64,000 nucleotides of DNA from Bacteriovorax stolpii. GTDB lineage: Bacteria; Bdellovibrionota; UBA2428. The notes under the pieces were generated by a model. The model saw only the letters and a list, made by a program, of their open reading frames with translations. It searched no databases and was not told the DNA's origin. Each line of letters starts with the position of its first letter. Position 1 is the stretch's first letter. Below are positions 39,231 to 42,979 of this stretch, piece by piece. The position numbers and the translations under genes are program-made. The stretch lies in contig CAMCVE010000008.1 in the NCBI GenBank assembly GCA_945881775.1, positions 1 to 64,000 on the forward strand. Reading direction: 5' to 3'.

Positions 39231-39926
39231 ATGCTTCCGAGTCTGCGCGCGATCCGTGTTGTCCAAAGTCCCGGCCGATTGCGCCACGGACCAAGTCTTT
39301 TCGAAGTGGACTGTGAGTGGAAGGGCCCCTCTTTGAACGTCATCATGGGCGAATCAGGCTCAGGAAAATCCACACTTCTGAAGACCCTAGGGGGAGTGTG
39401 GGAACCTCTTTCTGGACAGGTTCTATTTGAGGGTGAGTCTCTTTGGTCTGAGTCGGGACACAGGCAAAACAAAAGCCTCCTGTCTCGTATTGGATTCTGT
39501 TTTCAAAACAACGCCCTCTTTAATTCAATGACATGTTTTGAGAATCTCTGTTTTCCACGCAGCCAACGGCGTCCTCTTGAATCCGAAACTGCGCGCCGAA
39601 AAATCGCGACTCACTGGCTCGACAAGGTCGGACTCAGTGGAAGCGAGTCCCTCTTTCCCTTTGAACTTTCAGGAGGCATGCAAAAACGCCTGGCCATCGC
39701 GCGCACGCTGATTCTTGAACCCGACTACATCTTCTTTGATGATCCCACCGCGGGACTCGATCCGATCACGAGCCGACAGATCGCACTTCTCCTGCTTGAG
39801 CTTTTAGAAAACCGGCCCGCGCTCACGTTTGTGGTCACGAACGACGAAGACCGCGCTCGCTCCTGGGCTCCCAGCGTCTTCGAGTTGCGTGGTGGGCATT
39901 TGAACGAAAAGAGACATTTGCCATGA
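39231..39926 (+). CDS. ABC ATPase, divergent MlaF-like, subunit A
   Basis: Walker A GESGSGKST, signature LSGGM, Walker B IFFDDPTAGLDP (Glu to Asp), H-loop VVTNDED (His to Asn). Confidence 0.85.
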   Translation: MLPSLRAIRVVQSPGRLRHGPSLFEVDCEWKGPSLNVIMGESGSGKSTLLKTLGGVWEPLSGQVLFEGESLWSESGHRQNKSLLSRIGFCFQNNALFNSMTCFENLCFPRSQRRPLESETARRKIATHWLDKVGLSGSESLFPFELSGGMQKRLAIARTLILEPDYIFFDDPTAGLDPITSRQIALLLLELLENRPALTFVVTNDEDRARSWAPSVFELRGGHLNEKRHLP

Positions 39927-40651
39927 TCCGATTCGAAAATGTCCACAAGAGCTTCGGCCCGAAGAAAGTTCTAAACGGACTGAGTCTCTCAATTCAGCGA
40001 GGCGAAATTTTCTTTATGCTCGGCAGGTCGGGTACCGGCAAAAGCGTTTCCCTCAAACATCTCGTGGGACTTCTCACGCCAGACAGCGGAAAAATTTGGA
40101 TCGACGACACGGAAATCTCTCAGTTCTCGGAGAACCAATTCGTGCCCATTCGCAAGAAATGTGGACTAGTGTTCCAGCTGCCAGCTCTCGTTGACTCTCG
40201 CTCGCTCTACGAAAATTTGGTTCTGGGCATCCGACATCTCGACGCAGTCCAAAAGCTTGCGAGGATCTCTGCGACCCTCAAAGCGGTGGGTCTCGAATCC
40301 CTCGAAAAAGATCTCTTTGAAAGATTTCCGCCGTCTCTAAGTTACGGTGAACAAAAACGTCTCGCCTTGGCGCGCACTCTGCTTCCTGATCCTGAGATCC
40401 TGCTCTACGACGAACCCACAACGGGCCTCGATCCCACGACCTCGCTCCAGATTCACGATCTCATCAAGAAGATCTCGAAGGATTTTGGCAAAACTTCGAT
40501 TGTTGTAAGCCACGACATGCGCAATGCCCTAAAAATTGCAGACAGGTTGGCGGTGCTGGACGCCGGCCGTGTCGTCGATCTTGGAACTCCTGAAGAAATC
40601 AGGCGCAGCCCCGTTGCGATGACAATGGCTTTCATGGAGGATCTCCAATGA
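39923..40651 (+). CDS. ABC ATPase, MlaF-like, subunit B
   Basis: Walker A GRSGTGKSV, signature LSYGE, Walker B LLYDEPTTGLDP, H-loop VVSHDM. Confidence 0.88.
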   Translation: MIRFENVHKSFGPKKVLNGLSLSIQRGEIFFMLGRSGTGKSVSLKHLVGLLTPDSGKIWIDDTEISQFSENQFVPIRKKCGLVFQLPALVDSRSLYENLVLGIRHLDAVQKLARISATLKAVGLESLEKDLFERFPPSLSYGEQKRLALARTLLPDPEILLYDEPTTGLDPTTSLQIHDLIKKISKDFGKTSIVVSHDMRNALKIADRLAVLDAGRVVDLGTPEEIRRSPVAMTMAFMEDLQ

Positions 40652-41412
40652 TCCATCGACTGGAAGCCCTCCGTGAGCACCTTCGATTCTTCTGGATGCT
40701 GTTCATTCGTCTTCCCGAACTCTTCACGGAACGCCGAGAATTCATGCGCCAGTTTGCCGATGTGGGCGTGCGCTCGCTGAGCACCACCGTGACCGCTGGA
40801 ATCTTCACAGGAGCCATCATGGCCCTGCAGTTTCATCTTCAGCTGAAAGACTTTGGTGCAGAGTCCGTTCTAGGCGGCCTCAACACCTCAGGCACGATTC
40901 GCGAAGTAGGCCCCATTCTTATTGCCTTCATGCTCGCGGGAAAAGTCGGAGCTTTCACGTCGGCCGAACTTGGGACCATGAAGGTCACGGATCAAATCCA
41001 AGCCGTGCGCTGCCTAGGACTCGATCCCATATCCTTCTTTGTGGTCCCCCGCTTCTGGGCCGTGGCACTGAATTCTATTCTCTTGCTGGTCTTTGGACTT
41101 GTGATTTCTGTCTTGGGAGGAATGATTGCAGTCTGGATGGTTGCTGACATCAATCCCGACCAGTACCTGCTCATGGTCGAGCGTTTTGCGACTTCTGAGT
41201 CCATCTTTCTTGCAGTGAGCAAATCCGTGATCTTTGGACTTCTCATGGGTCATATTTGCTGCGCAAACGGCTACTGGACCGAAGGCGGCACCCAGGGCGT
41301 GGGCCTCGCGGTGAAGAAAACTGCTGTCCAAAGCATGGTTGCTATTGTCCTCGCGGACTTCTTCATCTCCTGGATCGTAGAGATCATCGTGCGGTCGGGG
41401 GATTTTCTGTGA
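40648..41412 (+). CDS. MlaE-like permease 1
   Basis: GPILIAFMLAGKVGAFTSAELGTMKVTDQIQAVRCLGLDPISFFVVPR is MlaE-family. Confidence 0.9.
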   Translation: MIHRLEALREHLRFFWMLFIRLPELFTERREFMRQFADVGVRSLSTTVTAGIFTGAIMALQFHLQLKDFGAESVLGGLNTSGTIREVGPILIAFMLAGKVGAFTSAELGTMKVTDQIQAVRCLGLDPISFFVVPRFWAVALNSILLLVFGLVISVLGGMIAVWMVADINPDQYLLMVERFATSESIFLAVSKSVIFGLLMGHICCANGYWTEGGTQGVGLAVKKTAVQSMVAIVLADFFISWIVEIIVRSGDFL

Positions 41413-42158
41413 ACGCGTTTCAGAGAGCCCTCGACACCGTAAAGATACTTCTGACAAGCGTGAACGCGCTCGCTCGGGGTCGTGTTCCCTCGCGCGACAT
41501 CTGGAAACAGCTCTACGAATTCGGAAATTCTTCAATCGGAATTGTTGTCCTCTGCGTGACCTTCATGGGCATCATCCTCATTTCCGAATACAGCTTTCAC
41601 ATGAAGCTTGTGATAGGCAACGACTCGATGATACCGGGATTCGCGATGATTCTGCTCATTCGGGAACTTGCTCCGATTGTCGGCGCACTACTGATCACAT
41701 CAAAAATGGGCGCGAGCATCGCCGCAGAACTCGCCGCCATGAAGAACACCGAACAAATCGACGCTTATCGCCTCCTCGGCCTCAATATCGTCGAGCTTTA
41801 CGTCGCGCCCCGCACATTGGCTTCGTCTGTGGCGGCTTGGTCTCTGGCCACGATCTCTTTGGCGATCGCGATTCTAGGGGCCTGGTTCTCGGCGGTGGTC
41901 TTTCTCAACTTCTCGACAGGTCCATTTTTTCAAAGTCTCTTCATCTTCGTTACAGCGGGTGATTTGATTCTTATGAGTATCAAAGCCGTGGTGTTTGGTT
42001 GCTGCATCCCCTCGATCTGCGCGCATTATGGCCTGCAGGCCAGCTTCGGTGCAGAGGGCGTAGGCCACGCAACTACCGACGCCGTCGTTGGGACCTCGAT
42101 TACGGTCATCGTGATGGACTTTGTCATCACCTACCTCTACGCCGTGTTAGCTAGCTAG
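41409..42158 (+). CDS. MlaE-like permease 2
   Basis: APIVGALLITSKMGASIAAELAAMKNTEQIDAYRLLGLNIVELYVAPR; GTG start overlaps the permease 1 stop. Confidence 0.9.
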   Translation: MNAFQRALDTVKILLTSVNALARGRVPSRDIWKQLYEFGNSSIGIVVLCVTFMGIILISEYSFHMKLVIGNDSMIPGFAMILLIRELAPIVGALLITSKMGASIAAELAAMKNTEQIDAYRLLGLNIVELYVAPRTLASSVAAWSLATISLAIAILGAWFSAVVFLNFSTGPFFQSLFIFVTAGDLILMSIKAVVFGCCIPSICAHYGLQASFGAEGVGHATTDAVVGTSITVIVMDFVITYLYAVLAS

Positions 42159-42979
42159 AAGAGCAGGTCCAAACCGAGCCCCACAAAGGCCTCTCGATTG
42201 TTGAAGGCAATTTGAGGACGCCATGCGACGAGCTTGGGCTTTACGAGTCCAATCTCGTGAGTGATCAACGGTCCGATCGAAACCAAAAAATACGAAGGGC
42301 GCTCGTCGAAGTTTTCTGAGGGAGAACCGAGTCTCATCAGGATGCGCATCGCGCCCCCGAAACCAAAGAATTCGTTGTAGGGCCCGTAGTAGCGCAGTCC
42401 GTAACCAAGCCACACCCCGCTTGAATACACCCTCTCATCAGAACGAGTTTTTCTGAGCTCGAGAAGATGTCCGAAAAGCACTTCTGCATCGAGGGCTTTG
42501 TCGCGCCCCACGACCCAGTGATGACCTGCTCCCACACTCAGTTGCCAAGCCTCAGACACATTCAGAAGTGCTCCACTAATGTTCTTAAGAGAACCCGATC
42601 CTTTTATGAGATCGTTACTCAAGACAAAATAGAATTTTTTTTTCGCGGGACTGGCCTCGGTGCTCGATGTCTCGGAAGCCTCAGGAAGAAGATAATCAAG
42701 GTCTTCGGCGCGGATCCAACCTTCGGTCGTTCTAAAGGCGCGTCCAAAACACCAGCCGTCATCGCCACAAGTTCCAACTTCAAAAGGTGCTCCCGCTCGC
42801 ACCCAGGAATGCACGGCCGCCGAATCACCGGGATCAAGACGAAGCGTCGTATCTTTGACGGTGTAGACAATCATACCCGCGCGCACAGGACGTACAACGA
42901 AACCGACGCAGAGTAACAGTCCCCAGATTAAGATTCGTTTAGGAATCGCCGATAGCGAAGACATGGACATTCGAGGCAT
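42155..42979 (-). CDS. Exported protein with SH3-like domain and C-terminal outer-membrane-like region
   Basis: Signal peptide, TLRLDPGDSAAVHSWVRAGAPFEVGTCGDDGWCFGRAFRTTEGWI (SH3b-like), beta-rich C-terminus ending in F. Confidence 0.6.
   Translation of the reverse strand: MPRMSMSSLSAIPKRILIWGLLLCVGFVVRPVRAGMIVYTVKDTTLRLDPGDSAAVHSWVRAGAPFEVGTCGDDGWCFGRAFRTTEGWIRAEDLDYLLPEASETSSTEASPAKKKFYFVLSNDLIKGSGSLKNISGALLNVSEAWQLSVGAGHHWVVGRDKALDAEVLFGHLLELRKTRSDERVYSSGVWLGYGLRYYGPYNEFFGFGGAMRILMRLGSPSENFDERPSYFLVSIGPLITHEIGLVKPKLVAWRPQIAFNNREAFVGLGLDLLF

Follow-up and report, generated by a model that had tools for sequence, protein, structure and literature searches.

The described systems closest to the locus analyzed here are two transporters of the MCE class and the heterodimeric ABC proteins with a degenerate site, such as TM287/288, TAP, and BmrCD. 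MlaFEDB comprises an MlaE-family permease, an ATPase (MlaF) with an SGGM signature, and the MCE protein MlaD; its MlaE pairs with itself, and the direction in which Mla moves its substrate is under debate. To our knowledge, the ATPases of structurally solved MCE transporters are homodimeric; asymmetric ATPase pairs occur elsewhere, as in ECF, OppDF, and ABCG5/G8. MlaF itself is a homodimer (PMC7367683), and in the mycobacterial Mce1 system (YrbE1A/YrbE1B, MceG, and Mce1A-F) a YrbE1A/YrbE1B heterodimer is combined with a MceG homodimer and a ring of six different MCE proteins (PMC9882608). In ABC proteins, an ATP site is formed by Walker A/B and the Q- and H-loops of one subunit together with the signature of the other, and the catalytic Glu and switch His are required for efficient hydrolysis (PMC7544095). 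The degenerate site of TM287/288 combines an Asp in Walker B with a deviant signature and is hydrolysis-incompetent (PMC5216877), while the signature of ABCB11, a fused case, shows G-to-R and Q-to-E changes (PMC7544095). In open-licence papers, we found no description of a heterodimeric or degenerate-site MCE/Mla ATPase (a description elsewhere is possible) or of a Bdellovibrio Mla or MCE system; one 2025 Bdellovibrio paper mentions Mla in passing only (PMC12228718).

The stretch of Bacteriovorax stolpii DNA that we analyzed (64,000 nucleotides; hereinafter the window) contains four genes on the plus strand spanning positions 39231-42158, namely ATPase A (39231-39926, 231 aa), ATPase B (39923-40651, 242 aa), and the MlaE-family permeases E1 (40648-41412, 254 aa) and E2 (41409-42158, 249 aa). 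Every junction is a 4-bp overlap (ATGA or GTGA), with the GTG start of E2 overlapping the stop of E1. Open reading frames, DNA, and Pfam matches all agree with the first-pass annotation, which had described four overlapping genes coding for two ATPases and two MlaE-like permeases. Thus, A and B were recovered as ABC_tran domains (99 and 112 bits, both above the curated cut-offs), and E1 and E2 as MlaE domains (PF02405; 208 and 180 bits against a cut-off of 22.5). The closest PDB relatives of the permeases are MlaE and YrbE1A/B, and MlaF chains are among the top matches in a PDB search with an A profile; neither cassette ATPase reached the MlaF equivalog cut-off in a profile test. A and B share 35% identity over 191 columns of a pairwise alignment, and E1 and E2 share 28%. 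The membrane subunits thus belong to the MlaE family and not to the ABCB type, the different membrane fold of type IV exporters such as TM287/288, TAP, and BmrCD. A further gene, convergent with E2 and overlapping its end by four bases (42155-42979, minus strand), codes for a protein with a weak, below-cut-off match to SH3_4, the C-terminal part of which resembles a membrane β-barrel.

Searches with A across 59 genomes of Bdellovibrionota, with the locus contexts annotated using phmmer, recovered tandem ATPase pairs in many families of the phylum, including 21 loci in the order A, B, E1, E2, 18 of which have a downstream MCE gene. In a contig profile search with the MCE alignment, from which the best 80 of 298 relatives were used, the complete A-B-E1-E2-MCE order is present at 62 of the 80 loci; another 8 have no A call, and the remainder are shorter and mostly truncated. 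The records behind these best 80 of 298 are almost all Bdellovibrionota-type or vaguely labeled, with one odd exception: a Streptomyces griseus MAG by title (L115, CALQIT020000001.1), probably mislabeled, that carries a Bdellovibrionota-type MCE gene (53% identity). The full order also occurs in Bdellovibrio bacteriovorus (kdesi A, NZ_CP102930.1:1222163-1222915), where the cassette spans about 1222163-1226081. In maximum-likelihood trees, A and B each form one clade (SH-aLRT 99 and 94), both apart from the single MlaFs, and E1 and E2 likewise each form their own clade (support 100 for both); the two paralogue pairs hence arose before the sampled families diverged.

A close examination of the ATPase motifs reproduced exactly those given in the first-pass annotation. 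In the window, A displays GESGSGKS, LSGGM, IFFDDPTAGLDP, and VVTND, and B displays GRSGTGKS, LSYGE, LLYDEPTTGLDP, and VVSHD. In the pairwise alignment, the Asp of A falls on the catalytic Glu of B, and the Asn of A on the switch His of B. A therefore retains an intact Walker A and signature and has Asp for the catalytic Glu and Asn for the switch His, whereas B retains Walker A, the Walker B Glu, and the switch His and has Tyr in place of a signature Gly. We tallied these positions for 80 A proteins and 87 B proteins. Only identical sequences were dropped beforehand, and the proteins are related to one another, some of them closely, such that the counts do not represent independent events. All 80 A proteins have Gly at signature position 3 (SGGM) and the D-loop AGLDP, and the 78 that could be aligned at Walker A all keep its Lys and Ser/Thr; the Q-loop is likewise intact. 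Their catalytic position is occupied by Asp in 63, Glu in 16, and Ser in 1, and the H-loop position by Asn in 69, Ser in 8, His in 2, and Thr in 1. The Asp-for-Glu substitution, as reported in the first pass, is hence common but not universal, and loss of the switch His (78/80) is the steadier feature. Both patterns looked for as counter-evidence are absent: no A protein combines Glu with His (0/80), the switch His being missing wherever Glu is kept (16 proteins) and the catalytic residue being Asp or Ser in the two proteins that retain His; and no B protein has an intact Gly at signature position 3 (0/87; Tyr 79, Phe 8). In B, the catalytic Glu is present in 87/87 and the switch His in all 86 readable sequences. 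The complementary defects proposed in the first pass were recovered in every orthologue pair examined and at three further loci, where the switch position of A is Ser or Gly and the B signature reads SFG, SFG, and SHS. In ten ordinary MlaF proteins encoded in the same genomes as the compared cassettes, all motifs are canonical. Judging from these alignments, the A/B asymmetry is a fixed feature rather than an isolated oddity. Conservation is lower in A than in B (mean identities of 49% and 58%); nevertheless, we rejected a decaying pseudogene, because its Walker A Lys and Ser/Thr, signature Gly, and D-loop are conserved across the phylum.

The ATPase sequences thus display the complementary defects characteristic of asymmetric heterodimeric ABC ATPases. 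Pairing A with itself would leave both sites defective in their Walker and H-loop residues, and pairing B with itself would leave both with a defective signature; accordingly, A/B alone offers one complete site. As two ATPase clades with complementary motifs depart, by sequence, from the homodimeric state of MlaF and MceG, we class the cassette as a variant. The same pattern points to assembly of A with B and to functional asymmetry between their sites, with a parallel in TM287/288, where one subunit likewise has the Walker B Asp and the other the deviant signature, and in ABCB11, where the altered G and Q of LSGGQ match the two altered positions in the LSYGE of the window's B. Given that 16 of the 80 A proteins keep Glu, some members of the phylum may have a degenerate site with residual activity. 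Those 16 proteins, along with the intact Walker A and Q-loop of A, could also be accommodated by an A/B heterodimer that hydrolyzes ATP at both sites, tolerating Asp, Asn/Ser, and SYG, with an asymmetry in rate only. We consider this unlikely, as Glu or His is missing from each A and a bulky residue occupies signature position 3 in each B, and changes of this kind are reported to render sites incompetent in other ABC proteins (PMC7544095, PMC5216877). That the operon instead houses two homodimeric transporters, one A-type and one B-type, has nothing direct in its favor beyond the homodimer being the rule for MlaF (PMC7367683); with neither A2 nor B2 having a complete site, the four genes staying together in a fixed order, and the complementary changes present in all pairs, it is highly improbable.

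The absence of an adjacent MCE gene noted in the first pass is true of the window; genome-wide, the proposed search for an unlinked MCE protein yielded a candidate on contig C9 (C9:92818-93696; PF02470, 55 bits). The source genome codes for five MlaE and four MCE proteins; three of the MCE genes adjoin their own permease, and the one on C9 has no neighboring permease. The C9 protein scores 286 bits against the profile of cassette MCEs; across 59 genomes, no MCE from outside the cassette exceeds 87 bits. It also bears the motif DPPRIDQL, matching the DPPR[IVF]DQL found in 18/18 cassette MCEs and 0/10 others; in a same-family MCE (genome G001) the exact motif is altered and the PPR.DQL core, invariant in the cassette MCE alignment, is kept. 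By score and motif, then, the C9 MCE is the cassette orthologue. Phyletic patterns concur: cassette MCE and cassette E2 are found in the same 25 of 59 genomes, including G002 and G030, where E2 is split over two frames and two contigs, respectively. In the former, a genome of the window's family (C183:7104-7892; L045:7071-7898), the two-piece E2 match reflects either a frameshift or an assembly error. Across 369 genomes, 150 have both E2 and MCE, 6 (G002 and G030 among them) MCE alone, 2 E2 alone, and 211 neither; of the 158 genomes with at least one of the two, 150 thus carry the pair (Fisher p about 3e-93, ignoring relatedness, with the lists compared by hand).

All three cassette-bearing genomes of the window's family have the MCE gene on a separate contig, and its absence from the cassette there is, on comparison with relatives, a relocation. 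Because of this separation, the partnership in that family is drawn from orthology and co-occurrence, which together suggest that the C9 MCE works with the cassette. An MCE protein hence appears to belong to the system, adjacent in most relatives and represented here by the unlinked, co-occurring orthologue. A structural model of the C9-type MCE shows a TM helix followed by an MCE domain and an extended helical tail modeled at low confidence, with MlaD in MlaFEDB and the Mce1 subunits as its best structural matches; the same organization is seen in the MCE subunits of Mce1. The cassette could conceivably act independently of the C9 MCE, using none or one of the other three, and both the unlinked position in this family and the existence of those three genes would allow this. 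We judge it quite unlikely, as those three adjoin their own permeases, the C9 protein is by score and motif the orthologue, and E2 and MCE co-occur so regularly, a result that also weakens the case for an MCE-less transporter.

The gene that immediately follows the C9 MCE codes for a predicted exported protein (C9:93696-94550; L010:5697-6548). As Pfam assigned it to no clear family, we predicted its fold: the C-terminal domain has eight predicted strands, mostly with pLDDT near 90, and Foldseek matched the model to OprF, OmpX, Ail, and OmpA. A homologue of this barrel follows MCE at 58 of 105 loci, including that of B. bacteriovorus, and was not found beside it at 46 of 105 in an automated check, which overlooked a few overlapping genes. 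The loci without it include those examined in families f7 and f12, and several families have no recognizable copy there. The C9 barrel, predicted to lie in the outer membrane, is a likely partner of the MCE protein, and its recurrence suggests a part in the system more generally.

As for other Mla components, the source genome has one MlaC-family gene (C20:31248-31670; L176), distant from the MCE loci seen, no match to MlaA, and no STAS_2 match above the cut-off; the textbook Mla pathway is therefore incomplete in this assembly (95% complete). In these respects, and in its two ATPases and two permeases, the system differs from MlaFEDB. The same genome has another MCE system (C2:94402-96979; L012:4403-6980) comprising a permease, an MCE protein, and an ATPase-like protein from which the Walker A Lys, signature, catalytic Glu, and switch His are all gone. 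None of its relatives in other genomes of the phylum (L167-L175) has the switch His, and most lack the Glu, with some keeping Walker A; we regard it as a candidate pseudo-ATPase MCE system.

With an MlaE-family permease, an MlaF-like ATPase, and an MCE protein all accounted for, we read the cassette as an MCE transporter variant. It probably specifies a type VIII (MCE, MlaFEDB-like) lipid transporter with E1/E2 and A/B heterodimers, one degenerate ATP site, and a ring of the C9 MCE. Under this model, the cassette would be the inner-membrane engine, with A pairing head-to-tail with B. The Walker motifs and His of B would join the signature of A in a complete catalytic site where ATP is hydrolyzed; those of A (Asp/Asn) would join the SYG signature of B in a degenerate site expected to bind ATP with little or no hydrolysis. 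Each cycle of E1/E2 would then be powered by a single ATP, while ATP at the degenerate site would hold the two ATPases together, a role proposed for that of TM287/288 (PMC5216877). The presumed substrate, a lipid, would be handed between E1/E2 and the membrane-anchored MCE ring, encoded in the source genome by the unlinked gene on C9, with the eight-stranded barrel encoded directly after it as the likely partner. More speculatively, and rather doubtfully, the MCE tube might dock by its helical tail on the barrel, with the asymmetry setting the direction of lipid transport and a possible link to predation (e.g., in Bdellovibrio).

The cassette resembles Mce1 in its heterodimeric MlaE-like permease and differs from it in having a predicted heterodimeric ATPase pair and one MCE gene per cassette. 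We infer an MCE transporter that works in the manner of asymmetric heterodimeric ABC proteins, a variant that we did not find described. The degenerate-site principle would thereby reach a class of transporters whose membrane fold is different, and a lopsided, one-site engine known from some drug exporters would be present in relatives of predatory bacteria (Bdellovibrionota). As a natural asymmetric MCE member conserved across much of the phylum, including the cultivable B. bacteriovorus, it would allow the role of each ATP site to be addressed by single-residue mutants, and the MCE and barrel genes are candidate partners that can be tested in Bdellovibrio.
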